Source: Glycomyces luteolus
GTDB lineage: Bacteria; Actinomycetota; Actinomycetes; Mycobacteriales; Micromonosporaceae
Length of the DNA stretch: 64,000 bases
Direction: 5' to 3'
Assembly (NCBI RefSeq): GCF_027622875.1
Contig: NZ_JAPZVP010000007.1
Coordinates: 1-64,000, forward strand
Shown: positions 901-60,837 of the stretch, piece by piece
Layout: every line of letters begins with the position of its first letter
Position numbering within the stretch: the stretch's first letter is position 1
Notes under the pieces: model-generated
What the model was told of the DNA's origin: nothing
The model's input: the letters and a program-made list of their open reading frames with translations, nothing else
Database searches by the model: none
Position numbers and translations under genes: made by a program

Positions 901-1228
901 GGTCAGCCTCGCAAGGGGTCTCGGAAGGGGCGTGCGGCAGGGGAGCCGCCCGGTGTCTCCCATGGTGTTCCCTCCGCGTCACGAACCAGCTGCGGAAGCC
1001 GCTCGATAGGGGAAGGAAGATCATGTGCCCGTTTGACGCCGCACTGCCCGGTCGCGTTCCCGCCGCCGACTCAAGAGGACCGCCGAAACTGTTGCCATAT
1101 ACTTGCAATAGGGACGCGGGCCATGTGACATGTGATATGCCACCACCCCCGGCCCTCGTCCATGAGCGCAGCACCCGAACACTGACGAAGACCATGAGGG
1201 AGACCGATTGGCGAAGAAGGAGGCACTG
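901..1228. other. Divergent intergenic region, 328 bp
   Basis: This gap separates the divergent lipoprotein and deformylase genes. It holds one copy of the dispersed palindromic repeat at 1120-1145 and an AT-richer patch around 1090-1112. Neither gene has a clear paired -35/-10. The left part is G+C-rich with short open frames that lack ribosome binding sites. Confidence 0.5.
1120..1145 (-). repeat. Dispersed palindromic repeat, copy 1
   Basis: The plus strand reads CATGTGACATGTGATATGCC followed by ACC. On the minus strand this matches the family core GTGGYATRTCACATGTCRCG with few changes. It lies about 85 bp upstream of the deformylase start. Confidence 0.7.
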
Positions 1229-1798
1229 GTGACCGATCACGAACAGGCTCCGCCCGTTGACCGCGCCGCCGACGGGCGTGTCCCGGGCGAGCTCGGCCGG
1301 GCGCACCCGATCACGCAATACGGCGAAGCCGTGCTGCACCGCGCCTGCAAACCCGTCGAGGCCTTCGACGACGCGCTGGCGGCGCTGGTCGAGGACATGT
1401 TCGCGAGCATGCACGCGGCCAACGGCGTCGGCCTGGCGGCCAACCAGATCGGCGTCGACGCCCGGGTGTTCGTCCTCGACTGCGAGGACGCCGACGGCGT
1501 GCGCACCGTGGCGGCCGTGGTGAACCCGGTGCTCCACCTGCCGCCCGCGCCCCGGGAGCTCATGGTCGACGACGAGGGCTGCCTGTCGGTGCCCGGCGCG
1601 TTCGAGGACACGCCGCGTTCGACCACCGCCGTGGTCGAGGGCTTCGACGCGCACGGCGAGCCCGTACGGATCGAGGGCACCGGCACCTTGGCACGGTGCC
1701 TCCAGCACGAGTACGACCACCTCGAAGGCACCGTCTACGTCGACCGGCTCCCGAAGAAGGCCCGCAACCGCGCGCTGGCCGAGGCCGGCCTCCGCTAG
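1229..1798 (+). CDS. def: Peptide deformylase
   Basis: A 189-residue Fe/Zn enzyme that removes the formyl group from the initiator methionine of new proteins. All three family motifs are present: GVGLAANQIG at 66-75, EGCLS at 116-120 (metal ligand Cys118) and HEYDH at 160-164 (ligands His160 and His164, catalytic Glu161). The GTG at 1229 is preferred because AAGGAGG (1217-1223) sits 5 nt upstream; a TTG at 1208 in the same frame would place that Shine-Dalgarno inside the gene. Length is normal for the family. The 25-residue N-terminal extension before the conserved core is variable among actinomycete deformylases. Confidence 0.95.
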   Translation: MTDHEQAPPVDRAADGRVPGELGRAHPITQYGEAVLHRACKPVEAFDDALAALVEDMFASMHAANGVGLAANQIGVDARVFVLDCEDADGVRTVAAVVNPVLHLPPAPRELMVDDEGCLSVPGAFEDTPRSTTAVVEGFDAHGEPVRIEGTGTLARCLQHEYDHLEGTVYVDRLPKKARNRALAEAGLR

Positions 1799-1838
1799 GC
1801 CGCGGGCGGCGTCGGACCCCTCTGGCATCATCGGCGCC

Positions 1839-2456
1839 GTGGAATACACGGAACTGAAAGCACGCCTGCGCCAGGCCTACGACGCCGACGCCGACTCCCG
1901 CGCGGTCATGAGCGACCGCCCGTGGAAGGCCCTGGAACGCAATCGGTTCGCCGACCGGCTCCGCGAGTCCGGGGCGTCGCGGCTGCTGGAGATCGGTGCG
2001 GGGCACGGGATCAGCGGCCGGTTCTTCGCCGACCAGGGTTTCGACGTCACGTGCGTCGACCTCTCGCCCGAACTCGTGGCGCACTGCCGCGGCAAGGGCC
2101 TGGAAGCGCAGGTGATGGACTTCGGCGACCTGGACTTCGAGGACGCGTCCTTCGACGCCGTGTTCGGCATGAACTGCCTGCTGCACGTGCCGAAATCCGA
2201 ACTCCCCGGCGTGCTCGCCGAAGTGCGCAGGGTGCTCGCCCCGGAAGGGTTGTTCTACTGGGGACAGTACGGCGGCCAGGACTACGAGGGGGTCTGGGAG
2301 ACCGACCACTGCGTCCCGAAGCGGTTCTTCTCCTTCTTCACCGCCGACCGCATCGAGGCGGTCGCGGACGAGCACTTCGACCTCGTCGAGGCGAACCACA
2401 CCGCGCTCGAATCGGACATCGACCAGTACCAGGGACTCATCCTCCGCAAGCGCTGA
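1839..2456 (+). CDS. Class I SAM-dependent methyltransferase
   Basis: A 205-residue Rossmann-fold methyltransferase. The SAM-binding motif I is LEIGAGHG at about 49-56, followed by an acidic end of strand 2 (VDLSPE) and a post-motif FDAVFGMNCLLHVP. The substrate is not predictable; proteins of this size usually act on small molecules. The GTG start has no Shine-Dalgarno, but CATCAT lies 7 nt upstream, the spacing of a -10 box for a leaderless mRNA. It follows the deformylase by 40 nt and may be separately transcribed. Confidence 0.85.
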   Translation: MEYTELKARLRQAYDADADSRAVMSDRPWKALERNRFADRLRESGASRLLEIGAGHGISGRFFADQGFDVTCVDLSPELVAHCRGKGLEAQVMDFGDLDFEDASFDAVFGMNCLLHVPKSELPGVLAEVRRVLAPEGLFYWGQYGGQDYEGVWETDHCVPKRFFSFFTADRIEAVADEHFDLVEANHTALESDIDQYQGLILRKR

Positions 2457-2530
2457 GACCGCCGAGGCCGCCGAGATACCGTTGATGCAGGGTTTGGGGC
2501 TGGGCAAGCGCTCCAGCGCGCTCTATCCTC

Positions 2531-2560
2531 GCCTCAGGCCGCCTCAGGCCGCCTCACGGC
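2531..2560. repeat. Short tandem repeat, about 2.9 copies of a 10-mer
   Basis: GCCTCAGGCC occurs twice in direct succession at 2531-2550, followed by a third imperfect copy. Each unit contains a GGCC palindrome. It lies just upstream of the TPR gene. No function is visible. Confidence 0.7.
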
Positions 2561-2590
2561 CGATCCAGGCGCGGAACGGGGGACACGCCA

Positions 2591-3127
2591 TTGTCTGCTG
2601 AGCAGCAACAGATCGCCGAGCTCATCGCGATCGGCAACGACGGGCGCCTGTACGCGACCGAGCCCGACCGGCTGCGCCGCCTCGTCCGCTACGAGCTCGC
2701 CCGCGAAGACCGGCTCGCCCAACCGGAACTGCGGCAGGCCGGCGTCGGACTCGTCGCGCTCGGCGAGTACACCGAGGCGAAGCGGGTGCTCAAGCTGGCG
2801 CTGCAACGCGCGGTGACCCCGCACCAGCGCGTCGCGGCGCTCGTCAACCTCGGCGACGCCCACCGCTACCCCGGAGAGCTCGCCGCCGCCGAGCCGCTGT
2901 ACGAGGAGGCCATCGAGATCGCGCAGGCCGAGAGCCCGCACACCCTCCACTTCGCATTGCAGCACTATGGCAAACACCTCATCGACGCCCGCCGCCCCCA
3001 CCTCGCGGTCGAAGTCCTGACCGAGGTCCTGCTCATGCGGCAGAAGATCGGCGATCCGGCCCTCATCGCGTCGACACAGGACGCGTTGAGCGCCGCCCGC
3101 GCGGCCGTCGGGCAGCGTACGATCTGA
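2591..3127 (+). CDS. Tetratricopeptide repeat protein
   Basis: A 178-residue all-helical soluble protein. Residues 50-150 contain at least two TPR-like units, visible as ALGEYTEAKRVLKLAL and LVNLGDAHRYPGELAAAEPL, with the usual small residues at the helix crossing points. TPRs form protein-protein interaction scaffolds; no catalytic domain is present. The TTG start is inferred from the upstream purine-rich GGGGGA and from the start of the repeat array. Similar small TPR proteins are common next to actinomycete regulators, but no partner is evident here. Confidence 0.75.
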   Translation: MSAEQQQIAELIAIGNDGRLYATEPDRLRRLVRYELAREDRLAQPELRQAGVGLVALGEYTEAKRVLKLALQRAVTPHQRVAALVNLGDAHRYPGELAAAEPLYEEAIEIAQAESPHTLHFALQHYGKHLIDARRPHLAVEVLTEVLLMRQKIGDPALIASTQDALSAARAAVGQRTI

Positions 3128-3174
3128 CACTCTCCGTGTTGCACCGTCCTTCCGTAGCCGAGCAGAGGAACGCC

Positions 3175-7723: not shown

Positions 7724-7831
7724 TGCGCCAACAGTTCATGTCATCCGAGCACCGTTCCCGCGAACTCAAGGACATGACTGCTGTTGCGTACGCTCAATCT
7801 CGGCATCCTCGCCCATGTCGACGCCGGTAAG
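7724..7831 (+). CDS. Candidate 35-codon leader ORF overlapping the resistance GTPase start
   Basis: An ATG at 7724 preceded by GAAGGGG (7712-7718) opens a 35-codon frame that runs through and past the TTG start of the ribosome protection gene before stopping at 7831. Short translated leaders that sense stalled ribosomes precede tetM-type genes in other bacteria. Here the only support is the Shine-Dalgarno and the overlap. The peptide has no recognisable feature. Confidence 0.3.
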
Positions 7832-9805
7832 ACCAGCCTGACCGAGCGGCTCCTCCACGCCGCCGGGATCATCGACGAGGTCGGCAGCGTCGACGCGGGC
7901 AGCACCCGCACCGACACGCTCGACCTCGAACGCCGCCGGGGGATCACCATCAAGTCCGCGGTGGTGTCCTTCGCGCTCGGCGGCACCACCGTCAACCTCA
8001 TCGACACGCCCGGCCACCCCGATTTCATCGCCGAGGTGGAGCGGGTCCTGAACCTGCTCGACGGCGCGGTGCTCGTCGTCTCAGCCGTCGAGGGCGTCCA
8101 GGCCCAGACCCGCGTCCTGTATCGGGCGCTGCGCCGCTTGGGCGTCCCGACCCTGGTGTTCGTCAACAAGATCGACCGGGCGGGCGCCCGGTCCGACGCG
8201 CTGCTGCGCGACCTCGCCGCGAAGCTCGACCCGGCCATGGTCCCGATGGACACCGTCGAAGGCCTCGGATCGCCGGAGGCCGAGAGCAAGCCGCGCGAGC
8301 GCGACGCCGCGTTCGACGGGGACCTGCTCGAAGCCCTCGACGACGAGGACCTCCTGGACGCCTACCTCGCGGGCGTCGACGGTTCCCCGAACGCCAGTGG
8401 CATGTCACATGTCGCGCATGACGCGGCACTGGGCTCGGCACTCGACACCGCGTTCGAGGCACGCGTCGCGAAGGGCCGGGCCCACCCGGTCCACTTCGGG
8501 TCGGCGATCACCGGCGCCGGCATCGAGAGCCTCGTCGAGGGACTCCGCCGCTTCCTGCCCGGCTCGGTCGGCGATCCGGAAGGACCGCTGTCGGGCACCG
8601 TGTTCAAAGTGGAGCGCGGCTCGGCGGGGGAGCGGATCGCCTACGCCCGCCTGTTCGCCGGTGCGGTCGCGGTGCGCGACCGCATTCACGTCGGCGACTG
8701 CCGTGAGGCCAAGGTGACCGGCATCAGCGTCTTCGAGGACGGGATCGACCGTCCGCGGCCCCGGGCCGAGGCCGGCCGGATCGCGAAGCTCCGGGGCCTG
8801 GGGGAGGTCCGCATCGGCGACGCGATCGGTCGGCCGCCGAAGCTCCGCACCGAGCACTTCCTGCGGCCCGCGCTGGAGACCGTCGTCGCGCCAGTCGATG
8901 AACGCGACCGGCCCGCGCTGCACGCCGCGCTCACCCGACTGGCCGAACAAGATCCGCTCATCGGCCTGCGCCACGACGAGACGCGCCGGGAACTGTCCGT
9001 ATCGCTCTACGGCGAAGTCCAGAAAGAGGTCATCGGCGCCACCCTCGCCGAGGAGCACGGCCTCGCGGTCGACTTCCGCGAGTCCACCGTGATCTGCGTC
9101 GAGCGCGTCACCGGCACGGGCGCGGCCGCCGAGTTCATCGCCAAGGACCCCAACCCGTTCCTCGGCACCGCAGGCCTGCGGGTGGATCCCGCTTCCGGCA
9201 CCGGCGTCGACTTCCGGCTCGGCGTGGAGCTCGGCTCGATGCCGTTCGCGTTCTTCAAAGCCGTCGAGGAGACCGTTCACGAGACGCTGCGCGAGGGCCT
9301 GCACGGCTGGCAGGTCGAAGGCGTCGCGGTCACGATGACCCACTCGGGCTACTGGGCCCGCCAGTCCAGTGCGCACGGCGGCTTCGACAAGAGCATGTCG
9401 AGCACCGCCGGGGACTTCCGGAACCTCGTGCCGCTCGTCCTCATGGCCGCCCTCCGCCGGGCCGGAACCGTGGTGTGCGAACCCTTGCACCGCTTCCGGA
9501 TCGAACTGCCCGCCGCCGACCTCGGCGGCGTCCTCGCCGCGCTGGCGAAACTCCGCGCGGTCCCCGAACCGCCGGAACTCGGCGGCGGCCGGTGCGCGCT
9601 CGAGGGCACGATCCCGGCCGGGGCCGTCCACGGCCTCGGCCAGCGCCTCCCGGGCCTGACCAGCGGTGAGGGCGTCCTCGAGAGCGTCTTCGAACGCCAC
9701 GAGCCGGTGACCGGCCCGGTCCCGTCCCGGCCCCGCACCGATGCGAATCCGCTCGACCGGGAGGCCTACCTGCTGGCGGTGATGCGCCGCGTGACCGGCA
9801 AATGA
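7784..9805 (+). CDS. TetM/OtrA-type ribosome protection GTPase
   Basis: A 673-residue EF-G paralogue of the class that removes tetracycline from the ribosome. G1 is AHVDAGKTS at 10-18, switch II is DTPGH at 74-78 and G4 NKID at 128-131, followed by the EF-G domains II-V. Length matches OtrA and TetM (about 640-665). The LNLGILAHVDAGKTSLTERL start is typical of ribosome protection proteins rather than true EF-G. The TTG start has only a distant AAGGA (11 nt). A copy of the dispersed repeat is translated in frame near residues 205-216, in a variable part of the G domain. Self-protection or basal tolerance are both possible roles. Confidence 0.85.
   Translation: MRTLNLGILAHVDAGKTSLTERLLHAAGIIDEVGSVDAGSTRTDTLDLERRRGITIKSAVVSFALGGTTVNLIDTPGHPDFIAEVERVLNLLDGAVLVVSAVEGVQAQTRVLYRALRRLGVPTLVFVNKIDRAGARSDALLRDLAAKLDPAMVPMDTVEGLGSPEAESKPRERDAAFDGDLLEALDDEDLLDAYLAGVDGSPNASGMSHVAHDAALGSALDTAFEARVAKGRAHPVHFGSAITGAGIESLVEGLRRFLPGSVGDPEGPLSGTVFKVERGSAGERIAYARLFAGAVAVRDRIHVGDCREAKVTGISVFEDGIDRPRPRAEAGRIAKLRGLGEVRIGDAIGRPPKLRTEHFLRPALETVVAPVDERDRPALHAALTRLAEQDPLIGLRHDETRRELSVSLYGEVQKEVIGATLAEEHGLAVDFRESTVICVERVTGTGAAAEFIAKDPNPFLGTAGLRVDPASGTGVDFRLGVELGSMPFAFFKAVEETVHETLREGLHGWQVEGVAVTMTHSGYWARQSSAHGGFDKSMSSTAGDFRNLVPLVLMAALRRAGTVVCEPLHRFRIELPAADLGGVLAALAKLRAVPEPPELGGGRCALEGTIPAGAVHGLGQRLPGLTSGEGVLESVFERHEPVTGPVPSRPRTDANPLDREAYLLAVMRRVTGK
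8396..8432 (+). repeat. Dispersed palindromic repeat, copy 2 (inside a coding region)
   Basis: AGTGGCATGTCACATGTCGC continues with GCATGACGCGGCACTGG. Outer arms GTGGC...GTCA and TGAC...GGCAC are imperfect inverted repeats. It is read in frame as Ser-Gly-Met-Ser-His-Val-Ala-His-Asp-Ala-Ala-Leu. Confidence 0.7.
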
Positions 9806-23693: not shown

Positions 23694-25235
23694 CTAGACC
23701 ACCGTCTCCGAATCCGCCGTCTCGTCCCGGACGCCGAACTCGTCGCAGACCTCCTTCGTCGGTCCGCATCGGACGATCCGGCCGCGATCCATCACCGCCA
23801 CGCGATGCGCGAAGCCCCGCACCGCCTCCAAATCGTGGCAGATGAACAGATAACTCAGACCCAGACGCTCCTGCAGGCCGATGAGCAACTCGAAGATCTC
23901 CCGGCGCAGCGGCGCGTCCAAAGCCGAAGTCGGCTCATCGAGCACCAGGAGACGCGGCTCGCTCGCCAGCGCCCGCGCGATGTTCACGCGCTGGCACTGA
24001 CCGCCCGAGAGCTCGTGCGGACGACGGTCGGCGAGTCCGATGTCGAGTCCGGTGAGCGCGAACAACTCCCGCACCCTCGCCGGACCCGCGACAGGGTCCC
24101 AACGCCGCTGCACCCGCAGCGGCTCGGCCACGGCCTCCCCGGCGGAGAGACGCGGACTGAGCGAGCCGTACGGGTCCTGCAGCACCGGCTGCAACCGCGG
24201 ACGGAGCGACCGAAGATCACGCTCACCCATGTCGGCGAGATCGCGGCCCTCGAAGCGGACCGTGCCGCTCGCGGGCCTCAAGAGCCGCAGCACCGCGGCG
24301 GCGATCGACGACTTGCCCGAACCCGAAGGGCCGATGAGCGCCAGCGTCTCCCCGGCCGCGATGTCGAACGAGACGCCGTCCACCGCACGATTGCCCGAGC
24401 GGGTTCCCATTCCCAGCCGATAGCGAACCGGCGCATGTGACATGTGATATTCCACCGTCAGATCGCGGACTTTCAGCAGCGATGCCGCATCGTTCAACGG
24501 CGCTCGCGGTGCGAGCGCGGGACCCTCTCGGATCACGTCCGAGAGCAGCCGACCCTCCTCGATGGCGAGTACCCGATCGGCGTACTCGTCGACCACCGCG
24601 AGGTCATGGGTGATGACCAGCATGCCGGTCCCCGTTGCGGCGCAGCGTTCCCGCAGGAGATCGAGGATCTGCGTCCGGGTCCGCACATCGAGTGCCGTGG
24701 TCGGTTCGTCGGCCACGATCAGTTTGGGGGTGGCGGCCGTGGCGAGGGCGATGACGGCGCGCTGGCGCATGCCGCCGGAGAACTGGTGCGGGTAGTCGCG
24801 GGCGCGGGCGGACGGGTCGGGAATGCCGACGGCGTCGAGCGCGTCCACTGCGGCCTGCCTCGCGGCGCCCTTGCCGATGCCGCGAACTGAGGCGATGGCC
24901 CCGGCGATCTGGTCGCCGACCCGGTGGACCGGGCTCAGCACCGTGAGGGCGTCCTGCGGCACGTAGGCGAGGGTGCGTCCCCGGAGCCCGCCGAGCACCG
25001 CTCGGCCGGCGCCGAGGATCTCGGTGCCGTCGATGACCGCGCTGCCCGACGCGTGCGCCGATGGCGGCAGCAGTCCCAGGATCGCTTTGGCGGTCAAGGA
25101 CTTCCCGGCGCCCGAAGCGCCGATGAGCGCCACGATCTCACCGGGGTCGATGCTGAAGGAGATGCCGCGCACGGCTTCCGTCCGTCCGATTCTGACGCGA
25201 AGGTCGCGGACGTCGAGCAGGGTGCGGGCGTTCAT
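23694..25235 (-). CDS. Peptide/nickel ABC importer, two ATPase domains fused (DppD-DppF type)
   Basis: A 513-residue protein with two complete nucleotide-binding domains. The first has Walker A GASGAGKS, signature FSGGMRQR and Walker B LIVADEPTTALD; the second has GPSGSGKS, LSGGQCQR and LLVLDEPTSALD. Together they would energise uptake through the downstream-fused permease. The ATG overlaps the permease stop by 4 bp (ATGA), so translation is coupled. A dispersed repeat copy is translated in frame at about residues 260-268, in the loop between the first strand of domain 2 and its AVDGVSF strand. It is the last gene of the operon. Confidence 0.92.
   Translation of the reverse strand: MNARTLLDVRDLRVRIGRTEAVRGISFSIDPGEIVALIGASGAGKSLTAKAILGLLPPSAHASGSAVIDGTEILGAGRAVLGGLRGRTLAYVPQDALTVLSPVHRVGDQIAGAIASVRGIGKGAARQAAVDALDAVGIPDPSARARDYPHQFSGGMRQRAVIALATAATPKLIVADEPTTALDVRTRTQILDLLRERCAATGTGMLVITHDLAVVDEYADRVLAIEEGRLLSDVIREGPALAPRAPLNDAASLLKVRDLTVEYHMSHAPVRYRLGMGTRSGNRAVDGVSFDIAAGETLALIGPSGSGKSSIAAAVLRLLRPASGTVRFEGRDLADMGERDLRSLRPRLQPVLQDPYGSLSPRLSAGEAVAEPLRVQRRWDPVAGPARVRELFALTGLDIGLADRRPHELSGGQCQRVNIARALASEPRLLVLDEPTSALDAPLRREIFELLIGLQERLGLSYLFICHDLEAVRGFAHRVAVMDRGRIVRCGPTKEVCDEFGVRDETADSETVV
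24433..24457 (-). repeat. Dispersed palindromic repeat, copy 3 (inside a coding region)
   Basis: Read in the coding direction, GTGGAATATCACATGTCACA continues with TGC. It encodes Val-Glu-Tyr-His-Met-Ser-His-Ala and sits in a variable loop of the second ATPase domain. Confidence 0.65.
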
Positions 25236-28520: not shown

Positions 28521-28620
28521 CCTGTGGGGCGGGACTTGCTCCGGGTCACAACCCCGGATCCCGCCTCATCCGCCACACGACGGCGCTATCGGACCGCGCC
28601 GTCAAGTGGTGCCATCGGCA

Positions 28621-28656
28621 AGTGGTATGTCACATGTCGCGCGGCATATGGCACTG
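28621..28656 (+). repeat. Dispersed palindromic repeat, copy 4
   Basis: AGTGGTATGTCACATGTCGC continues with GCGGCATATGGCACTG. The ends GTGG and GGCAC are imperfectly inverted. It lies in the divergent gap between the ABC importer and the GH15 gene. Confidence 0.75.
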
Positions 28657-31854: not shown

Positions 31855-31866
31855 CAGGACCTCCTC

Positions 31867-31900
31867 AGTGGTATGTCACACGTGGCGCGTCACAGTATGC
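31867..31900 (+). repeat. Dispersed palindromic repeat, copy 5
   Basis: AGTGGTATGTCACACGTGGC continues with GCGTCACAGTATGC. It lies in the 54-bp gap between the GntR gene and the hydroxyproline epimerase gene and could be an element or an operator. Confidence 0.65.
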
Positions 31901-31908: not shown

Positions 31909-32910
31909 TCAGAGGATGAATCCGCTGGGGAAGGGGTCTTCGGGGTCGAGCGTGTACTGGGCGGTACCGGTTATCCAGGCGCGGCCGGTGACGGACGGGA
32001 TGACAGCCGGGATGCCGGCGACCTCGGTCTCGCCGACGAGGCGGCCGGTGAAGCGCGAGCCGATGAACGACTCGTTGACGAAGTCCTGGTCGAGTCCGAG
32101 CAGGCCGCGGGCGCGGAGCTGGGCCATCCGCGCGGAAGTGCCGGTGCCGCAGGGGGAGCGGTCGAACCAGCCGGGGTGGATGGCCATGGCGTGCCGGGAG
32201 TGCTTCGCGTCCGAGCCCGGCGCGGTCAGGTAGACGTGGTGGAGGCCCCGGATGGACGGCTCCAGCGGGTGCACCGGCTCCGCTTCGGCGTTCACGGCCG
32301 CCATGATGTCGAGTCCGGCGGCGATGAGCTCGTTCTTGGCGGCCCGGTCGAACGGCAGGCCGAGGTCGTCGAGGTCGACGAACGCGTAGAAGTTCCCGCC
32401 GAAGGCGAGGTCGTAGCGCACCTCGCGGCCGTCCTTGAGGGTCGCGACGCGGTCGAGCCCCACCGAGAACGCCGGAACGTTCACCAGCGTGACGGCTTTG
32501 GCCGCACCGTCCTCGACCTGCACCTCCACTTGGACCAAGCCTGCGGGAGTGTCGAGGCGGACCGTCGTGACCGGCTCGGTCACCGCCACCATGCCGGTCT
32601 CGACGAGCACCGTGGCCACCCCGATCGTGCCGTGCCCGCACATCGGGAGGTAGCCCGAGACCTCGATGAACAGCACACCCCAGTCCGCGTCCGGGCGGGT
32701 CGGCGGCTGGAGGATCGCCCCGCTCATGGCGGCGTGGCCGCGCGGTTCGTTCATCAGGAAGCCGCGCACGTGGTCGGAATGGTCGCGGAAATGGTTGCGC
32801 CGCTCCATCATCGTCGCCCCCGGGATGGCGCCCACGCCACCGGTCACGACCCGGGTGGGCATGCCCTCGGTGTGCGATTCGACCGTGTGGAGCACGAGCC
32901 TGCTGCGCAT
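31909..32910 (-). CDS. 4-hydroxyproline 2-epimerase (proline racemase superfamily)
   Basis: A 333-residue enzyme that interconverts trans-4-hydroxy-L-proline and cis-4-hydroxy-D-proline, the first catabolic step. Both catalytic cysteines are present: Cys91 in MCGHGTIG and Cys254 in RSPCGTGTSARMAQL, which excludes the Ser/Thr-type dehydratases of the superfamily. HTVESHTEGMPTRVV is the usual N-terminus. Proline racemase is the alternative, but the flanking deaminase and semialdehyde dehydrogenase favour hydroxyproline. AGAAGGAGG lies 5 nt before the ATG. Confidence 0.88.
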   Translation of the reverse strand: MRSRLVLHTVESHTEGMPTRVVTGGVGAIPGATMMERRNHFRDHSDHVRGFLMNEPRGHAAMSGAILQPPTRPDADWGVLFIEVSGYLPMCGHGTIGVATVLVETGMVAVTEPVTTVRLDTPAGLVQVEVQVEDGAAKAVTLVNVPAFSVGLDRVATLKDGREVRYDLAFGGNFYAFVDLDDLGLPFDRAAKNELIAAGLDIMAAVNAEAEPVHPLEPSIRGLHHVYLTAPGSDAKHSRHAMAIHPGWFDRSPCGTGTSARMAQLRARGLLGLDQDFVNESFIGSRFTGRLVGETEVAGIPAVIPSVTGRAWITGTAQYTLDPEDPFPSGFIL

Positions 32911-32921
32911 GGGTCCTCCTT

Positions 32922-33818
32922 CTAGGCGAGACCGGCCGCGAGGGCCTGCTCGGTGGCGGTGCGGACCTCGGCGGCCTGCTCGGGCATGAGCGGCACGCGG
33001 GGGAGGCGGCACTGGCCGCCCTTGCGGCCCACGATGTCCATGGAGAGCTTGATGGCCTGCACGAACTCCACTTTCGAGTCCCAGCGCAGGAGCGGGTGCA
33101 GTTGGCGGTACAGCGGCAGGGCCGTCTCGAGGTCGCCCGCGACGGCCGCCCGGTACAGCTCCACCGTGGACTTCGGCAGTGCGTTGGGGTAGCCCGAGAC
33201 CCAGCCGACGGCGCCGGCGACCGCCAGTTCGAGCAGCACGTCGTCGGCGCCCACGAGCAGGTCGAGGTCGGGGGCGAGCTCGGCGATGCGGTAGGCGCGG
33301 CGCACGTCGCCGGAGAACTCCTTGACGGCGTGGATGAGGCCCTCGGCGTGGAGCTTCGCCAGCAGTTCTGGGGTGAGGTCGACCTTGGTGTCGATCGGGT
33401 TGTTGTAGGCGACGATCGGCACGCCGGCCTTGGCGACCTCTTCGTAGTGGGCGATCACCGAGCGCTCGTCGGCCCGGTAGGCGTTGGGCGGCAGGAGCAT
33501 GACCGCGCCGCATCCGGCGTCGCGCGCCTGCTCGGCCCAGCGGCGGGCCTCGGCGGCGCCGTAGGCGGCGACGCCGGGCATGACGCGCTCGCCGCCGATC
33601 GCCGCGACCGCGGTGGCGACGACCTCGGCGCGCTCGGCCTCGGTGAGGGTCTGGTACTCACCGAGGGAGCCGTTCGGAGTGACGCCGTCGCAGCCGTTCG
33701 CCACCAGCCAGGCGCAGTGCTCGTCGAATGCCGCGAAGTCGACCGTGCGGTCGTCGTTGAACGGCAGGGCGGTGGCGACGAGGACGCCGCGCCAGGGGCG
33801 CGATTCGAGTGCCGACAT
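32922..33818 (-). CDS. DapA-family 1-pyrroline-4-hydroxy-2-carboxylate deaminase
   Basis: A 298-residue TIM-barrel Schiff-base enzyme. Lys166 in HAVKEFSGD is the Schiff-base residue, Tyr138 in VAYNNP the proton shuttle, and GVTPNGSLGEY the carboxylate-binding loop. In hydroxyproline clusters such DapA relatives convert pyrroline-4-hydroxy-2-carboxylate to 2-oxoglutarate semialdehyde. ATG 33818 is preferred because GGAAG sits 5 nt upstream; an ATG 30 nt earlier lacks a site and lies inside a repeat copy. 11 bp separate it from the epimerase gene. Confidence 0.85.
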   Translation of the reverse strand: MSALESRPWRGVLVATALPFNDDRTVDFAAFDEHCAWLVANGCDGVTPNGSLGEYQTLTEAERAEVVATAVAAIGGERVMPGVAAYGAAEARRWAEQARDAGCGAVMLLPPNAYRADERSVIAHYEEVAKAGVPIVAYNNPIDTKVDLTPELLAKLHAEGLIHAVKEFSGDVRRAYRIAELAPDLDLLVGADDVLLELAVAGAVGWVSGYPNALPKSTVELYRAAVAGDLETALPLYRQLHPLLRWDSKVEFVQAIKLSMDIVGRKGGQCRLPRVPLMPEQAAEVRTATEQALAAGLA

Positions 33819-33836
33819 GGGGCTTCCAATCTCGAT

Positions 33837-33853
33837 GACGTGTGACATGGTAC
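33837..33853 (-). repeat. Dispersed palindromic repeat, partial copy 6
   Basis: On the minus strand GTACCATGTCACACGTC matches the core of the family. It lies in the 5' untranslated region of the deaminase gene and includes a spurious in-frame ATG. Confidence 0.5.
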
Positions 33854-33925
33854 TGCTGGAGCCGCCTGGGGCGGCCTGGGAAGCGGTGGCGGCGGCAGCG
33901 GCCGTTCACCGATCAGTATCAGTAA

Positions 33926-33940
33926 TATGTCACATACTAT
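33926..33940. promoter_or_regulatory. Candidate GntR operator or repeat copy 7 in the divergent promoter
   Basis: ATATGTCACATACTA contains the palindrome TATGTCACATA with a central C, in an AT-rich patch between the divergent deaminase and dehydrogenase genes. TAATAT and TATAGT nearby could serve as -10 boxes. It is shorter and more symmetric than the other repeat copies, which fits a true operator. Confidence 0.45.
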
Positions 33941-34099
33941 AGTGGGATCACGGGTCCCGCGCGCAACGGGGAGTGACAAACCGCGGACCAGCGAGCGAAC
34001 ACCCGACGCCCGAGCCCCGAACGCCCGTCGACGAGGCTTCCCATACTGGAGGCCTCGCCGCAGGCGCCATCGCACCGAACCGTCGAACGGAGCGCACCC

Positions 34100-35623
34100 A
34101 TGGCCGACACGCTGCGCAGTGTCAACCCGACCACCGGAGTGGCCTTCGGCGACCCGATCGCCGAGACCACGCCCGAGGAGGTCGCCCGGGCCGCGGGGGC
34201 CGCCCGCGCCGCCGCGCCCGGTCTCGCCGCGATGCGCCCGGCCGAACGCGGCAGGCTCATGCGCGCCCTCGCGACCGCTCTGCTCTCCCACGAGGACGCC
34301 GTCGTCACCCTCGCCGACGCCGAGTCCGGCCTCGGCGAGACCCGCCTCCGAGGCGAACTCGCCCGCACCACCGGCCAGTTCGAGCAGTACGCCGCCTACG
34401 CCGAAACCGGGGCGACCCTCGACGCGGTGATCGACCACGCCGCCCCGCGCGCGACCCCGCCCCGACCGGACCTGCGCCGCTGCAACGTCCCGCTCGGCCC
34501 CGTCGCCGTCTACGCGGCCTCGAACTTCCCGCTCGCCTTCGGCGTCGCCGGGACCGACACCGCCGCCGCGCTCGCCGCCGGCTGCCCGGTAGTGGCCAAA
34601 GCCCACGCATCCCAGCCCGCCACCGCCGCCCTGCTCGCCGCGATCATCACCGAAGCGCTCGAGTCCCACGGCGCCGACCCGCGCGTATTCGCCGTTGCCA
34701 CCGGTTTCCAGGCCGGACTCGATCTGATCCGCGACCCGAACATCAAGGCAGCGGCATTCACCGGCTCGATCGCGGGCGGCCGCGCCCTGGCCGAGGAGGC
34801 CGCGGGACGCCCCGAGCCGATCCCCTTCTACGGTGAGCTCGGCAGCCTCAACCCCGTCGTGCTCACCCCCGAGGCCGTCGCGCAGCGCGGCCCCGGCCTG
34901 GTGGAGGAGTTCGCGGCGTCGATGACGCTCGGCGCGGGCCAGTTCTGCACCAAGCCCGGACTGCTCTTCCTCCCCGAGGGCCACGGTCTCGAGGAGGCGC
35001 TGGCGGCGGCCCTGCGCGCCAAGGAAGTCCACCCCATGCTCAACGCCCGCATCCGGGAGGCCTACGCGGCGGAAGCGGCCCGGCTGGCGTCACATCCGCA
35101 GGCGCGCTTCACGGTCGAGCCTGCGACAGTGGAGGGCGGTTTCGCGGTGACGCCGGGCCTCGTCGCGGTGCCCGCGTCCGCGATCGACGGCGACGACTCC
35201 CTGCTGCGCGAGTGCTTCGGCCCGACCGCCCTGGTGCTCACGTACGCCGACACGGCAGAGCTCGAACGGGTCCTCCCGCAGCTGCCCGGCGGCCTCACCG
35301 CGACGGTGCAGCTGGCGACTTCGGCGGATCCGGTCGCGCGGGTGGCGCTGCCGCTGCTGGCGGAGCGCTCGGGCCGCGTCATCGTGAACGGCTGGCCGAC
35401 CGGTGTGGCCGTGACCCACGCGCAGCACCACGGCGGCCCGTGGCCCGCGTCGACGAACGCCCGGCACACCTCGGTGGGCACGGGCGCGATCGCGCGCTTC
35501 GTCCGACCCGTCGCCTACCAGTCCACTCCGGAACCGCTGCTTCCCGAAGCGTTGCACGACGACAACCCGCTGGGCATCGAGCGCCGCGTCGACGGCGAGC
35601 TCGAGTCCACACGGCAGCGCTGA
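34100..35623 (+). CDS. 2-oxoglutarate semialdehyde dehydrogenase (NADP+), ALDH family
   Basis: A 507-residue aldehyde dehydrogenase. The catalytic Cys283 is in GAGQFCTKPG and the general base Glu246 in YGELGSLNPV; AFTGSIAGGRALAEEAA is the cofactor loop. The length and the FCTKPGL signature match the KGSADH group that completes hydroxyproline or arabinose oxidation to 2-oxoglutarate. It is divergent from the DapA-type gene across a 281-bp region with the TATGTCACATA palindrome. The GGAGC upstream of the ATG is 6 nt away. Confidence 0.9.
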   Translation: MADTLRSVNPTTGVAFGDPIAETTPEEVARAAGAARAAAPGLAAMRPAERGRLMRALATALLSHEDAVVTLADAESGLGETRLRGELARTTGQFEQYAAYAETGATLDAVIDHAAPRATPPRPDLRRCNVPLGPVAVYAASNFPLAFGVAGTDTAAALAAGCPVVAKAHASQPATAALLAAIITEALESHGADPRVFAVATGFQAGLDLIRDPNIKAAAFTGSIAGGRALAEEAAGRPEPIPFYGELGSLNPVVLTPEAVAQRGPGLVEEFAASMTLGAGQFCTKPGLLFLPEGHGLEEALAAALRAKEVHPMLNARIREAYAAEAARLASHPQARFTVEPATVEGGFAVTPGLVAVPASAIDGDDSLLRECFGPTALVLTYADTAELERVLPQLPGGLTATVQLATSADPVARVALPLLAERSGRVIVNGWPTGVAVTHAQHHGGPWPASTNARHTSVGTGAIARFVRPVAYQSTPEPLLPEALHDDNPLGIERRVDGELESTRQR

Positions 35624-35648: not shown

Positions 35649-35683
35649 AGTGCCATGTGGCATGTGATATGTCACGCGGCACC
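35649..35683 (-). repeat. Dispersed palindromic repeat, copy 8
   Basis: AGTGCCATGTGGCATGTGAT continues with ATGTCACGCGGCACC. GTGCC and GGCAC at the ends form a perfect 5-bp inverted repeat. It lies 26 bp after the dehydrogenase stop. Confidence 0.75.
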
Positions 35684-35777: not shown

Positions 35778-36581
35778 GTGGAGAGACGACAAGCGAGCGC
35801 GGCGGCGGCCGGGGTCCGCTGGGCCGTGGCCCTGACGGCAGTAGGCGTGGCCTTGGCCGGGTGCGGGGCGAACAGGGCCGCGCAGACCAGCGAGATGGCG
35901 CCTGCGATCTCCGGAGTCGACGCCGACGCGGGGACGCTGGCCCTGCGCGACATGCAGGTGGACTTCGGTGAGCGGGGCTTCTACCCGGAGGGCGGGCAGG
36001 CCCCGCTGCGGATCTGGATCGACAACCGCGGCGACGAGCCCGTGGTCCTCGAAGCGGTGACGAGCTCGGCTGCCGAGGCCGTCGTCCTCGCGACCGAGAT
36101 GGTCATCCCGGAGGAGACCCCTACCGCGGACGAGTCGGCGACACCGGAGACCGATGCGTCGGCTTCGCCGACCGCCGGCGAATCCGAAAGCCCCGAAGCC
36201 GACGCTTCGCCGACCGCCGACGCATCCGAGAGCCCCGAAGCCGACGACGCTTCGCCGACCGCCGACGCATCCGAGAGCCCCGACGCCGACGCCGCGGAGT
36301 CCGCGTCGCCTGAAGGCGAAGCGACCGCCGCCGAGCTGGAGGGCCAGCGCGACTTCGAGATCGAGATCGCCCCGGACTCGTACATGCGTCTGGCGCCCAC
36401 CACCGGCTCCTTCCTGATGCTCGACGGGCTGAAGGAGGACGTCTTCATGGGCGGGACCGTCGAGGTCACGTTCGTCTTCTCGAACGGCGAGGCGGTCACC
36501 GTGGACCTGCCGATGGGCGTCCCGGAGGAGGCCCCGCCCCGTTCCTATTTCGAACCGCGCCACGAGGAGGAGGCCGGGTAA
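35778..36581 (+). CDS. PCu(A)C-like copper chaperone-type lipoprotein with acidic repeat insert
   Basis: A 267-residue lipoprotein (lipobox Leu-Ala-Gly-Cys near residue 26). Strands before and after residues 115-185 (APLRIWIDNRGDEPVVLEAV and the later YMRLAPTTGSFLMLDGLKED) resemble the two halves of a PCu(A)C/cupredoxin-like domain. The middle is a Ser-Pro-Glu-Ala-Asp low-complexity insert encoded by three tandem 42-45-bp units. The usual Met/His copper ligands are only partly recognisable, so copper binding is uncertain. TAAGGT lies 7 nt before the GTG with no Shine-Dalgarno: probably leaderless. Confidence 0.7.
   Translation: MERRQASAAAAGVRWAVALTAVGVALAGCGANRAAQTSEMAPAISGVDADAGTLALRDMQVDFGERGFYPEGGQAPLRIWIDNRGDEPVVLEAVTSSAAEAVVLATEMVIPEETPTADESATPETDASASPTAGESESPEADASPTADASESPEADDASPTADASESPDADAAESASPEGEATAAELEGQRDFEIEIAPDSYMRLAPTTGSFLMLDGLKEDVFMGGTVEVTFVFSNGEAVTVDLPMGVPEEAPPRSYFEPRHEEEAG
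36162..36290 (+). repeat. In-frame coding minisatellite, three units
   Basis: Three direct copies of a 42-, 45- and 42-bp unit (36162-36203, 36204-36248, 36249-36290), each starting GCTTCGCCGACCGCCG and encoding Ala-Ser-Pro-Thr-Ala-(Asp/Gly)-(Ala/Glu)-Ser-Glu-Ser-Pro-(Glu/Asp)-Ala-Asp. Copies 2 and 3 are nearly identical, suggesting recent expansion. Confidence 0.85.
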
Positions 36582-43349: not shown

Positions 43350-43988
43350 ATGGCACGCCGCAAGCGCCCACTGTTCGCCCGCTGGTATCCCGACGCCGCC
43401 GCGCGGCTCGAGGAGCGCGGCCTCGCCGCGCAACGTGCGGAGCTGCTCGCCCCGCTGGAGGGGCGCGTCCTCGAGATCGGCTGCGGCTTCGGCGCGAACT
43501 TCCCGCACTACCCGGACGCGGTCACCGAACTCGTGGCCGTCGAACCCGAGGAGCACTTCAGGGACCTCGCCCGCGCCCGCGCCGACGAACTGGGACTCAA
43601 GGCCACCATCGTGGAAGGGGCGGCCGAGGCGCTGCCCGTCGAGTCCGGTTCCTTCGACGCCGTGGTCGCCACGGCCGTGCTCTGCTCGGTCGACAGCCAG
43701 GCCGATGCGCTGGCCGAGATCGCCCGCGTCCTCAAGCCCGGCGGGGAGCTGCGCGGCTTCGAGCACGTCGGCTCGCCGGGCCGGGCCCGGCATGCGGCCG
43801 AGAAGGTCCTCGACGCCGTGCTCTGGACCCATCTCAACGGCGGATGCCGCCTCTCTCGCGACACGCTCGGCGCGATCCGCGCGGCCGGGTTCGACACCGG
43901 CGGCATGCGCGAGGAGCGCTTCGCGTTCCTGCCGTTCCCGGTCTCGAAGAGCCCGCACATCGTCGGCACGGCCCGCAAACCCGGGTGA
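43350..43988 (+). CDS. Class I SAM methyltransferase, tandem copy A
   Basis: A 212-residue methyltransferase. Motif I is VLEIGCGFGANFPHYP at about 37-52, VEPEEHF ends strand 2, and FDAVVATAVLCSV and IARVLKPGGELRGFEHV follow. The family includes METTL7-like enzymes acting on small lipophilic thiols or arsenite. The next gene is a paralogue; the starts MARRKRPLFARWYP and MARRQRRLFARWYP show a local duplication. CAGGAG lies 6 nt before the ATG and TAGGCT is upstream. Confidence 0.87.
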   Translation: MARRKRPLFARWYPDAAARLEERGLAAQRAELLAPLEGRVLEIGCGFGANFPHYPDAVTELVAVEPEEHFRDLARARADELGLKATIVEGAAEALPVESGSFDAVVATAVLCSVDSQADALAEIARVLKPGGELRGFEHVGSPGRARHAAEKVLDAVLWTHLNGGCRLSRDTLGAIRAAGFDTGGMREERFAFLPFPVSKSPHIVGTARKPG

Positions 43989-44031
43989 TCGCGCTTAGGC
44001 TCGGGAGGCAGCGCCCGCAGAGGAGGAACGC

Positions 44032-44706
44032 ATGGCCCGCCGCCAACGCCGCCTGTTCGCCCGCTGGTACCCCGGCGTGGCCGCCTCCCTCGAGGAGCGC
44101 GGCCTGGGGGAGTGGCGCCGGAGCCTCCTCTCCGGGCTCGCCGGGCGCGTGCTGGAGGTCGGCTGCGGGCACGGCGTCAATTTCCCGCACTACCCCGACG
44201 CCGTGACCGAACTCGTCGCCGTCGAACCCGAAGCGCACCTGCGGGACCTCGCCCGGGAGCAGGCGGCGTCCTCCCGCGTCGCGGTGACGGTGCTCGACGG
44301 GCAGGCCGAGGCGCTTCCGGTGGAGAGCGGTTCGTTCGACGCGGTCGTCTCGACACTGGTCCTGTGCTCGGTCGAGGACCAGGACCGGGCGCTCGCGGAG
44401 ATCCACCGGGTGCTGCGGCCCGGCGGGCGCCTGTGGTGCCTGGAGCACGTGGCCTCGGCGAACCGGCCGATCCGCTGGGCCGAGCACGTGTTCGACGCGG
44501 TGTTCTGGTCCCACGCGTTCGGCGGCTGCCACACGGGCCGCGACACGGGTGCGGCGATCGAGCGCGCGGGGTTCCGCCTCGAGGGCCTTGAGGCGCGGCG
44601 GTACCCGGACCTGCCGTTTCCGCTCGCGGTGAGCCCGCACCTGATCGGCGCCGCCCGCAAACCCGGCGCTTCGGGCCCTGTGGAAGACTCTGCCGGAAAT
44701 CGGTGA
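44032..44706 (+). CDS. Class I SAM methyltransferase, tandem copy B
   Basis: A 224-residue paralogue of copy A. Motif I is VLEVGCGHGVNFPHYP, strand 2 ends VEPEAHL, and IHRVLRPGGRLWCLEHVAS and FGGCHTGRDTGAAIERAGF match copy A with few gaps. The C-terminus extends by about 14 residues. AGAGGAGGA lies 5 nt before the ATG and TAGGCT is upstream, so each copy keeps its own promoter. Confidence 0.87.
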   Translation: MARRQRRLFARWYPGVAASLEERGLGEWRRSLLSGLAGRVLEVGCGHGVNFPHYPDAVTELVAVEPEAHLRDLAREQAASSRVAVTVLDGQAEALPVESGSFDAVVSTLVLCSVEDQDRALAEIHRVLRPGGRLWCLEHVASANRPIRWAEHVFDAVFWSHAFGGCHTGRDTGAAIERAGFRLEGLEARRYPDLPFPLAVSPHLIGAARKPGASGPVEDSAGNR

Positions 44707-54619: not shown

Positions 54620-54649
54620 GGGTGCCACGTGACGCGTGATGTACTACCC
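54620..54649 (-). repeat. Dispersed palindromic repeat, copy 9
   Basis: GGGTGCCACGTGACGCGTGA continues with TGTACTACCC. Outer GGGT and ACCC are inverted. It lies just after the ptsI stop codon. Confidence 0.6.
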
Positions 54650-54779: not shown

Positions 54780-55985
54780 ATGAAGTCCACCTCGCGCGAC
54801 ATCCGCCTCCGCAACTGCTTCGCAGTGCTCCGGCACCTGATCGCGGACGCCCCCACCTCCCGCCAGATCCTCGCCCGCGAGACCGACCTCAGCGTCGCCA
54901 CCGTCTCCAACCTGGTGACCGACCTGATCGAACTCGGCGTCGTCATCGAAGTGGGCCGCGAGGACTCCGGCGGCGGCAGGCCCCGCGCCCTGCTCGCGCC
55001 CAACGCGGGAGGCGGCGTCATGATCGGCGTCGACGTCGCCGAAACCTACGTCTACCTCGAGGTCTACGACCTCACCCTGGCCGTCGTCGACCGCGTCGAA
55101 GAACGCATGGAGCCCAGCGAGAACGCCCCCGAACAGGTCATCGGCCACATCGCCTCCGCCATGGACCAGGTCCGCGAACGCCTCGGCGACCGCGCCGTCC
55201 TCGGCCTCGGCGTCAGCCTCCCCGGCCAGGTAGACGTCACCTGGGGCGTCTCCGGCTTCGCCCCCAACTGGAACTGGCACGACGTCCCCTTCCGCAAACT
55301 CCTCGACGACCGCCTCCAACTCGGCGTCCCCATCTACCTCGACAACCCCCTCAAGACCATCACCGTCGGCGAACTCTGGTTCGGCGAAGGCCGCGGCGTC
55401 GACCGCCTCGCCGTCCTCATCCTCGGCACCGGCGTCGGCGCCGGACTCGCCTTCGGCGGCCAGCTCTACCGCGGCGCCACCAACTCGGCAGGGGAGTGGG
55501 GCCACACCACCATCAACCCCGCCGGACCCCAATGCCGCTGCGGCGCAAAAGGATGCATCGAGGCCTACATCGGCGCGCCGGCCATCCTCTGGCACTGGGG
55601 CCAACTCGACGGCCGCGCCAAGGCCGGATCCCAGACCGAGGCCATGGCCGCGCTCGCCGCCGCCTGGGAAGCCGGCGAACCCACCGCCGTCCGCACTGTC
55701 GAGACCGTCGCCGAATACCTCGCCGCCGGCGTCGCGAACCTCCTCAACCTCTTCAACCCCGACCTCGTCGTCCTCGACGGCTGGGTCACCAGCGCCCTCG
55801 GCGACGCCCTCATCCCCGAATTCGAACGCCGCCTCCCCGACCACGCCATGGAGGCCCCGCTCAAAGCCGCCCGCCTCAAACGCAACGGCCAGGACCGCAA
55901 CATGGTCGCCCTCGGCGCCGCCGCACTGGCCCTCGAAGGACACCTGAACCGCCTGAACACGGTGGGCTCCCGCAGCCGCCGCTGA
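54780..55985 (+). CDS. ROK-family transcriptional regulator
   Basis: A 401-residue NagC/XylR-type repressor. An N-terminal winged helix (about 5-65: SRQILARETDLSVATVSNLV) precedes a sugar-kinase-like ROK domain with ILGTGVGAGLAFGGQLYRG and the zinc site CRCGAKGCIEAY. The shared site at its own and the next gene's promoter suggests it represses both and is released by a sugar or sugar phosphate. It is likely leaderless. Confidence 0.9.
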   Translation: MKSTSRDIRLRNCFAVLRHLIADAPTSRQILARETDLSVATVSNLVTDLIELGVVIEVGREDSGGGRPRALLAPNAGGGVMIGVDVAETYVYLEVYDLTLAVVDRVEERMEPSENAPEQVIGHIASAMDQVRERLGDRAVLGLGVSLPGQVDVTWGVSGFAPNWNWHDVPFRKLLDDRLQLGVPIYLDNPLKTITVGELWFGEGRGVDRLAVLILGTGVGAGLAFGGQLYRGATNSAGEWGHTTINPAGPQCRCGAKGCIEAYIGAPAILWHWGQLDGRAKAGSQTEAMAALAAAWEAGEPTAVRTVETVAEYLAAGVANLLNLFNPDLVVLDGWVTSALGDALIPEFERRLPDHAMEAPLKAARLKRNGQDRNMVALGAAALALEGHLNRLNTVGSRSRR

Positions 55986-57582: not shown

Positions 57583-57595
57583 GGGAGTGCGACAC

Positions 57596-58564: not shown

Positions 58565-58567
58565 GCC

Positions 58568-59443: not shown

Positions 59444-59520
59444 ACACAAGGGACTCCCTGTTCCCATAGCGGACCGATGCGGATGCTAATGTGAGCTGCA
59501 CTTCGGTCAGCGAGCCCAAC

Positions 59521-59547
59521 CGGCTGCGGGTGAACACCCCGCAGCCG
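59521..59547 (+). terminator. Hairpin in the leader of the DUF4234 gene
   Basis: CGGCTGCGGG and CCCGCAGCCG form a 10-bp stem with a 7-nt loop. It lies between a TAATGT -10-like box (59487-59492) and the gene start, so it could end the ABC operon or act as an attenuator. Confidence 0.5.
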
Positions 59548-59595
59548 TGCGCTTTGACCACGCCCGTCCCCCCTTTGCACAAGGAGTCATCCCCA

Positions 59596-59982: not shown

Positions 59983-60047
59983 GACGCCCCTCGTCGTTGC
60001 ACACGCGGAGGCGAAGCCCCCGGCTGCTGATCGCGGCCGGGGGCTTC

Positions 60048-60083
60048 GTGCTGCGTGACGCGTGATATGCCACTGCGCGGCAC
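60048..60083 (-). repeat. Dispersed palindromic repeat, copy 10
   Basis: GTGCTGCGTGACGCGTGATA continues with TGCCACTGCGCGGCAC. Ends GTGC and GCAC are inverted. It lies between the DUF4234 and adenine phosphoribosyltransferase genes. Confidence 0.7.
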
Positions 60084-60125
60084 AGGCGGCGTCCTAGCAG
60101 CCGGGGACCGGCTAACCTTGCCGCT

Positions 60126-60641
60126 GTGGATCTGACCGAATTCGTGCCCGTCGTCCCCGACTTCCCCGAGCCGGGGGTCGGCTTCCGCGACATCACGCCG
60201 CTGCTCGCCGACCCGGGCGCCTTCCGCTCCTCGGTCGACCGGCTCCTCGAGGCCTGCGCGGCCCACCCGTACGACGCGATCGCCGCGTTCGACGCCCGGG
60301 GCTTCCTCTGGGCCGCCCCGCTCGCCGACCGCACCGGCACCCCGCTCATCCCCATCCGCAAGGCCGGCAAGCTCCCGCGCGCCGCCGCGGTCGAGACCTA
60401 CCGCGGCGAGTACGCCGAAGTCCGAGTCGAGATGCACGCCGACGCCGTCCGCGAAGGCGACCGGATCCTCCTGGTCGACGACGTCATCGCCACCGGCGAG
60501 TCCATGGCCGCCGGCGTGCGCCTGGTCGAGGGCCTCGGCGGCACCGTCGCCGCCTGCGCCGCCCTCCTGGAGATCGCCTCCCTCTCGGGCCGCGACCGCC
60601 TCGACGGCTACCCGGTGATCTCGCTCCTGGGCAAGCTCTAA
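60126..60641 (+). CDS. apt: Adenine phosphoribosyltransferase
   Basis: A 171-residue type I phosphoribosyltransferase that salvages adenine to AMP. The PRPP-binding motif is ILLVDDVIATGESMAAG at about 119-135; FRDITPLLADPGAF and the flexible loop RKAGKLPRAAAVETYRGEY are characteristic of Apt. TAACCT lies 7 nt before the GTG and there is no Shine-Dalgarno, so it is probably leaderless. It converges with the aldolase gene. Confidence 0.95.
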   Translation: MDLTEFVPVVPDFPEPGVGFRDITPLLADPGAFRSSVDRLLEACAAHPYDAIAAFDARGFLWAAPLADRTGTPLIPIRKAGKLPRAAAVETYRGEYAEVRVEMHADAVREGDRILLVDDVIATGESMAAGVRLVEGLGGTVAACAALLEIASLSGRDRLDGYPVISLLGKL

Positions 60642-60728
60642 GCCCGCCAAGCGAATCCGAGGCACATTCGCACACTACCGATGTCGTACCCACCTGTCAG
60701 GGTGGATCCGGGGGTCCGCGACACGGGT

Positions 60729-60763
60729 AATACGTGACATGTCACATCGCAGTCACGCGGTGC
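60729..60763 (-). repeat. Dispersed palindromic repeat, copy 11
   Basis: AATACGTGACATGTCACATC continues with GCAGTCACGCGGTGC. GTGACATGTCAC inside it is a perfect 12-bp palindrome. It lies between convergent apt and eda. Confidence 0.65.
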
Positions 60764-60804
60764 GCCCCCTCGGCGCGACACCACCACCGGGCCGAAGCAG
60801 ACCA

Positions 60805-60837
60805 ATGGCGCGTGACCGGTGATATGTCACGCGCCAT
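60805..60837. repeat. Dispersed palindromic repeat, copy 12, forming a perfect hairpin
   Basis: ATGGCGCGTGAC and GTCACGCGCCAT are exact inverted copies around the 9-nt CGGTGATAT. It ends 21 bp from the eda stop and could serve as its terminator. Confidence 0.75.

Follow-up and report, generated by a model that had tools for sequence, protein, structure and literature searches.

Palindromic sites clustered around a HypR-like GntR/FCD regulator gene in Glycomyces luteolus and their possible regional role

The window studied here, a stretch of 64,000 nucleotides from Glycomyces luteolus, forms the first 64 kb of the 259,573-bp contig C47, in a genome (G000) of 5.74 Mb and 49 contigs. It contains a family of short palindromic repeats and, on the minus strand at 31162-31818, the gene of a GntR/FCD regulator resembling HypR. 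This regulator is very probably the protein which binds the repeats. That it binds them and in addition acts on the surrounding region is a joint statement which we favour with more reserve. At the level of sequence comparison, the anatomy of the site, its clustering around the gene, the co-distribution of sites and regulator, the conservation of the site core where the regulator is present but not in one relative that lacks it, and the match to the HypR motif are established.

A sequence-only reading of the window had listed about 12 copies, and the motif is present at all 12 coordinates. The consensus given at that time, allowing up to 3 mismatches, matches the window 9 times whereas 0.01 matches are expected from shuffled sequences. 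A weight matrix was then built from 12 sites, with a cut of 15 bits for cluster scanning and of 17 bits for territory counts. It detects 22 site clusters in contig bases 1-164000 and 0 in the reversed sequence. The motif therefore lies far above its shuffled and reversed controls, which is the comparison that the sequence-only reading had proposed for deciding whether a repeat family exists, and the family is conserved in 9 of the 22 Glycomyces genomes compared (G000 included). The expectation of hundreds of copies per genome has to be abandoned: a pattern scan of the 5.74 Mb gives 25 matches at 22 places, and in all the genome holds about 22-29 places of the motif.

Across three genomes and 83 sites, the conserved element spans 28 bp, with nothing conserved outside it. 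At its centre stands the 19-bp palindrome GTGRCATRTSAYATGYCAC, to which a weaker RYGGCAC half-site is usually added in a 7-bp register; the core reads TG[G/C/A]CAT[A/G]TCAC, or TGNCATRTCAC. Tandem heptads had been suspected, and half-sites do repeat at 7-bp spacing. The GTGCC/GGCAC ends described earlier exist as a further half-site of this type, albeit a weaker one whose bases are conserved at 41-64%. Up to five consecutive half-sites can be recognized by eye at 35650-35682. Furthermore, doublets and triplets of whole sites recur at a spacing of about 47-81 bp.

The copies are concentrated around one regulator gene, which a single window could not reveal. On C47, 17 of the 25 pattern matches (16 of the 22 places) lie within 92 kb, which is 1.6% of the genome (binomial p about 1e-24, a value that ignores the choice of the window for its density). 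At 17 bits, the matrix finds 20 sites at contig bases 1124-93321 and 0 in the other 166 kb of C47. Relative to the regulator gene, all 20 sites of this 259-kb contig fall in a range from -30.4 kb (close to the end of the contig) to +61.8 kb. The full 600-kb contig of the relative G009 gives a similar picture, with 26 of 26 sites (at least 17 bits) at -64.0 to +61.9 kb. For G020 (G. terrestris) and G015, stretches of 140 kb were picked around the regulator gene, so that the ranges are bounded by the sampling; each stretch contains 18 sites, at -68.7 to +48.7 kb and at -33.2 to +56.2 kb, respectively. Along the rest of the G020 contig, 11 sampled 20-kb stretches contain no site of this strength and one carries a triplet near 417 kb. 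Around the origin of G020, 374 kb contain a single weak site (19.0 bits). Some copies do lie elsewhere: 7 of the 33 pattern matches in G009 and 6 of the 22 places in G000 are on other contigs.

Sites and regulator are also distributed together among genomes. In a survey of the order (298 genomes), pattern matches number 0-4 in each of the 290 that do not belong to Glycomyces (0-2 for the reversed pattern). Within the genus, the 20-mer pattern has 16-33 matches in 9 site-rich genomes versus 0-2 in the 13 site-poor ones. A degenerate palindrome occurs at 14-41 places per genome in the former and 0-6 in the latter, some of these places being overlapping registers within one array; the reversed control gives 0-2. 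The regulator gene was singled out by a comparison of gene content, as four site-rich relatives carry it and the site-poor G016 and G003 lack it in the syntenic region. In a whole-genome search, orthologs of at least 79% identity were found in 9/9 site-rich genomes (82-100%) and in 1/13 site-poor genomes (G014, 79%; Fisher p 2e-5). Among the other 12 site-poor genomes, 8 have a best match of 46-53%, assigned to a paralog, and 4 have none at E<=1e-20. The window protein matches the Pfam models GntR (PF00392, 1.3e-14) and FCD (PF07729, 1.3e-21), both above their cut-offs. A ribbon-helix-helix binder had been considered, by analogy with the heptads of omega, and was rejected or at least weakened: RHH_1, the only such family searched, does not follow the site-rich pattern and gives 0 matches in the site-rich G007 and G020.

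The closest known systems include HypR (SCO6294) of Streptomyces coelicolor, a FadR-subfamily GntR/FCD repressor of hydroxyproline genes (PMC6608401). Its footprinted site is TACAATGTCAC, and the sites bound in electrophoretic mobility shift assays include TGC(A/C)ATGTCAC. Seven verified sites are located near promoters, the search for them having been confined to promoter regions. The metal site of HypR consists of His142, His186 and His208 with a stabilizing Asp138, and no DNA binding is reported in the presence of Zn2+ (PMC6608401). The window protein has the same pair of domains and carries H140, H184, H206 and D136 at a constant offset of 2 from the HypR residues. The published TGC(A/C)ATGTCAC can be set beside the Glycomyces TGNCATRTCAC, and the exact TGCCATGTCAC occurs in the site at contig base 93321. 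Furthermore, as with HypR, a site lies upstream of the regulator's own gene, and in the window genes of hydroxyproline type adjoin it. By its domains, the described residues, the motif and the neighbouring genes, the window regulator thus resembles HypR as described there. In contrast to HypR, the many places of the Glycomyces motif cluster for the most part around the gene, with coding and convergent positions among them, and both the palindrome and the tandem half-sites are much clearer.

Where the regulator is present, the site cores are better conserved than their surroundings. A site is found at the syntenic G009 place for 20 of the 22 site clusters of C47, the exceptions being 60727 and 75127, and many C47 sites recur in G020, those of convergent gaps among them. 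Core and flank identities were compared at alignable syntenic sites between G000 and each relative. In G009, the core reaches 92.3% vs 70.0% for the flanks at 11 intergenic sites (p 7e-13) and 97.4% vs 76.6% at 4 coding sites. The corresponding values are 95.6% vs 80.1% (6 intergenic sites) and 97.4% vs 79.9% (2 coding sites) in G002, and 92.1% vs 77.2% at 12 intergenic sites in G015. G016, a close and site-poor relative without an ortholog, shows no core excess (61.8% vs 68.2% at 4 intergenic sites, 63.2% vs 72.7% at 2 coding sites), and decayed remnants of sites are visible at some of its syntenic places. One coding site can be followed through the genus. Within a helicase gene at contig bases 83144-85840 (HrpB-like, by eye), the site forms an extra in-frame segment which encodes about VTRDMP; it is present in 9/9 site-rich and 0/13 site-poor genomes, the loops of the latter being shorter. 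The regulator itself ranks high in conservation among the genes of the block in three comparisons (2/78 in G015, 2/55 in G002 and 8/76 in G009).

The placement of the sites among genes was analyzed for the first 95 kb of the contig. As the sequence-only reading had stated, most sites lie between genes: 16 of the 20 are intergenic, with 4 in divergent, 8 in tandem and 4 in convergent gaps, and the remaining 4 are coding. Hence 8 of the 20 are not promoter-like. Convergent gaps account for 1363 of the 11311 intergenic bp and hold 4 of the 16 intergenic sites. From this distribution it follows that non-coding DNA is preferred and that promoters are not preferred within it. The neighbouring genes have mixed functions: peptide deformylase, an EF-G/Otr(A)-like factor, ABC transporters, glycosyl hydrolase 15, the hydroxyproline-type genes, a ROK regulator and adenine phosphoribosyltransferase. 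These labels derive from family models, and further neighbours were named by eye. A regulon devoted to a biosynthetic cluster was rejected, or at least weakened, in view of this mixture.

Around the regulator, the gene order offers a hint of how such a system may have begun. A 28-bp site at 31866..31893 (plus strand, 26.5 bits) stands just upstream of the gene, its core 50 bp from the ATG at 31818 and 14 bp from the alternative start ATG at 31854. It is found at the same place in G015, G002, G011 and G009 and is a candidate autoregulatory operator. Next to it, on the minus strand (31909-33818), are the hydroxyproline-type genes, a Pro_racemase family gene (31909-32910) and a DHDPS family gene (32922-33818), assigned by family models while the specific NCBIfam models stay below their cut-offs. 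Their divergent partner is an aldehyde dehydrogenase family gene (34100-35623, plus strand, family model). A site at 33828..33855 (minus strand, 18.4 bits), whose core is identical in G015 and G009, adjoins the start of the DHDPS-family gene. An operator-like palindrome at 33920..33947 (plus strand) follows in the divergent gap; this copy, listed earlier at 33926, is the weakest of all with 13.5 bits, below the 15-bit cut, yet it fits the palindrome. The hydroxyproline genes adjoin the regulator in the window and in G014, and the immediate neighbours differ in G001, G007, G013 and G020. In G014, the ortholog ends a hydroxyproline-type operon, and one palindrome (L194:2778, the counterpart of that at 33920..33947) lies in the divergent promoter gap, with no other match genome-wide. 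This arrangement looks like the ancestral state, and the genes at 31909-33818 are likely the ancestral target operon.

Similar palindromes, scoring 13.6-17.2 bits, lie next to the gene of the 46-53% paralog in G004, G019, G010 and G005. A strong palindrome of 31.3-34.5 bits is located upstream of a peptide-transport operon about 11 kb from the paralog in G003, G004, G008 and G019. On the other side of the window regulator, a gene at 30802-31095 (plus strand) encodes a His-rich protein of 97 aa with two similar halves. It adjoins the regulator in 9/9 site-rich genomes, with a shorter protein of 54 aa in G007 and G013 and, as called, of 79 aa in G011. In G016 and G003, no such gene turned up in the syntenic regions. 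A link to metal is possible for this protein because HypR is described as not binding DNA when Zn2+ is present.

How might one regulator use so many sites? Dimers would bind the 19-bp palindrome and its neighbouring half-sites cooperatively in a 7-bp register. A precedent is NanR of E. coli, an FCD-type GntR repressor of which three dimers bind (GGTATA)3 cooperatively (PMC8012715). In both systems, short half-sites follow each other in tandem at less than half a helical turn, and several NanR dimers bind together. However, the NanR operator is found in three operons, its sequence differs from the Glycomyces site, and NanR cooperativity needs a 32-residue N-terminal extension, for which the shorter window protein has little room. 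Weaker half-sites 7-12 nt from the palindrome are described for many GntR-family sites (PMC4494728). The protein would have started as a local repressor of hydroxyproline genes, arranged as in G014 and controlled by an FCD ligand and by metal. In part of Glycomyces, the sites would then have spread over 60-70 kb on each side of the gene and reached convergent gaps and the interior of open reading frames besides promoters. The outcome would be a regional repressor or organizer of about 130 kb instead of an operator-by-operator switch. We put forward, as a reading somewhat less likely than not, this conversion of a metabolic repressor into a region-specific DNA organizer whose dimers, on 20-30 sites, would carpet some 130 kb around its own gene. 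The region might accordingly be acted on as a whole, by silencing, bridging or insulating, as a 'gene territory' which selection keeps even within coding genes, a possibility viewed with equal caution. The recurrence of convergent and coding sites in relatives suggests a role beyond that of ordinary operators, in which the protein may be retained locally, repress the region or bridge DNA.

Several observations weigh against this proposal. G014 has the ortholog and one palindrome genome-wide, so a territory does not follow from the mere presence of the regulator. The clustering tracks a conserved synteny block, and other genes of the block are therefore confounded with the regulator, which ranks only 20/56 in conservation in G020. 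In G015 the regulator is 99% identical, but several sites there have weakened, and the core excess at 4 coding sites is not significant (88.2% vs 83.8%, p 0.38). For G016, the conservation test covered only 6 of the 20 sites, those that were alignable. On the helicase-gene tree 3 label changes are required, which would fit one origin with several losses, two origins or an exchange of the region. Since the contigs are incomplete, 6 of the 22 places in G000 cannot be positioned relative to the gene. Finally, the counts of gene context rest on genes called within this analysis, and 12 of the 20 sites occupy divergent or tandem gaps, which are places for ordinary operators, and could work as such.

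These 12 sites are also the starting point for an ordinary regulon, in which the same regulator would use operators at promoters to control numerous catabolic and transport operons in its vicinity, the coding and convergent sites being chance survivors or of minor importance. The promoter-proximal sites of HypR, where promoter regions only were examined, agree with this, as do several neighbouring transport or polymer-degrading genes, partly named by eye. Against it, convergent gaps are not depleted of sites, related species share the convergent-gap sites and the helicase-gene site, and the neighbour functions are mixed; we regard such a regulon as rather unlikely, if a serious competitor. A protein-binding site or a large regulon was among the options of the sequence-only reading, and this part of it is supported. 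Another of its options, a mobile family of REP/MITE type, accounts for palindromic, mostly intergenic and numerous copies. It is largely refuted and scarcely credible now: nothing is conserved past 28 bp, the copies amount to tens of places clustered in one block and not spread genome-wide, and orthologous places are fixed between species. A further rival is a neutral repeat, with short copies duplicated locally from the operators of the regulator and persisting without function. In G020, three sites share exactly the 16 upstream bases GGGGCCCGTGATACCG and three more do so approximately (L043:12279-12439, L046:10906 and 19029, L047:73), which suggests duplication there; the recurrent doublets at about 47-81 bp point the same way. 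This reading is nevertheless improbable given that cores exceed flanks by about 15-22 identity points at intergenic sites in three regulator-bearing pairs and that sites have decayed in G016, which lacks the regulator.

A marker of the terminus domain, with the nearby regulator a coincidence, was considered as well. The matS consensus holds GTGAC/GTCAC, which resembles the Glycomyces half-site. In E. coli, tens of short palindromes in one chromosomal region are likewise bound by one protein, MatP; however, matS is a 13-bp target distributed over 800 kb, compared with a 28-bp element over about 130 kb in Glycomyces (PMC3330122). Strand-composition polarity, trained around dnaA of G020, is positive in 23/25 20-kb stretches up to 500 kb of the G009 contig C12 and negative in 5/5 beyond. 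The G009 terminus accordingly falls near 500 kb of the contig, and its distance of 44-170 kb to the sites is what a terminus marker would have; on the other hand, all these sites are found on a single side of the switch. For the G020 contig C10, polarity is positive in 6/6 sampled stretches to 340 kb and negative in 11/12 from 380 kb, so that the switch at 340-380 kb is roughly 240-400 kb away from the main site cluster. The two distances indicate that the cluster travels with the synteny block of the regulator and keeps no fixed distance from the terminus. The G000 contig was too noisy for an exact position of the switch. A MatP search returned 0 of 22 Glycomyces genomes at E<=1 and did give matches in 4 control genomes, E. 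coli among them. Taken together, these results make a terminus marker highly improbable, slightly more so than the neutral repeat. In the same 22 genomes, Streptomyces-type consensuses gave no dif-like site shared between genomes. The sites are not parS either: for GTTTCACGTGAAAC, the target of ParB, G000 has six of seven copies beside dnaA on C5 and one on C19, with none on the motif contigs, and its dnaA is on a contig other than these.

The usual view is that bacterial regulators act on promoters wherever these are located. Here, most sites of one regulator would surround its own gene, persist in coding and convergent places, and largely come and go with the regulator. Among the matches listed by a small literature search, none described a territory of this kind in Glycomyces. 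The system may serve as a natural test bed for two questions: whether local synthesis is the reason why regulators act locally, and by which path a narrow repressor can turn into a domain-scale DNA-binding protein.

The other sites of the window are distributed as follows. The leftmost, at 1118..1145 (minus strand, 35.8 bits), is situated between a gene at 1-900 (minus) and the peptide deformylase gene at 1229-1798 (plus), and has an ortholog in G009 and a decayed counterpart in G016. Two are coding. One, at 8395..8422 (plus strand, 31.3 bits, ortholog in G009), is inside the EF-G/Otr(A)-like reading frame at 7784-9805; that frame comes nearest to ribosomal protection proteins of the Otr(A) type (NCBIfam E 2e-202, below the curated cut-off). 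The other, at 24430..24457 (minus strand, 34.6 bits, ortholog in G009, decayed in G016), falls in the linker of the two ATPase domains (two ABC_tran stretches) encoded by the frame at 23694-25235. The site at 28620..28647 (plus strand, 31.7 bits) separates divergent SBP_bac_5 and glycosyl hydrolase 15 genes. That with about five half-sites, at 35650..35677 (minus strand, 28.8 bits), lies between the genes at 34100-35623 and 35895-36581. Upstream of the ROK regulator gene (54780-55985) is a site at 54622..54649 (minus strand, 21.4 bits), with three sites at the same place in G009, and upstream of the adenine phosphoribosyltransferase gene (60126-60641) one at 60048..60075 (minus strand, 29.1 bits). 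The convergent gap between that gene (plus) and the gene at 60859-61458 (minus) contains two sites, at 60725..60752 (plus strand, 21.9 bits) and 60805..60832 (minus strand, 23.5 bits); G009 has one site there, and G016 a weakened remnant of the second at C23:133808.

Lastly, some features were noted in passing. In G009, C12:453568-461034 (L040/L041 region) holds by eye a SapB/Ram-like class III lanthipeptide set, composed of a response regulator, two ABC transporters, a 48-aa Cys/Ser-rich peptide and a LanKC-like enzyme; a transporter gene of the set contains a site. The set is absent from the syntenic place in the window's genome. Two adjoining methyltransferase-like genes (by eye) at 43350-44706 of the window look tandemly duplicated, and an inverted repeat at 63147-63220 has arms of 35 nt, 89% complementary and 4 nt apart.

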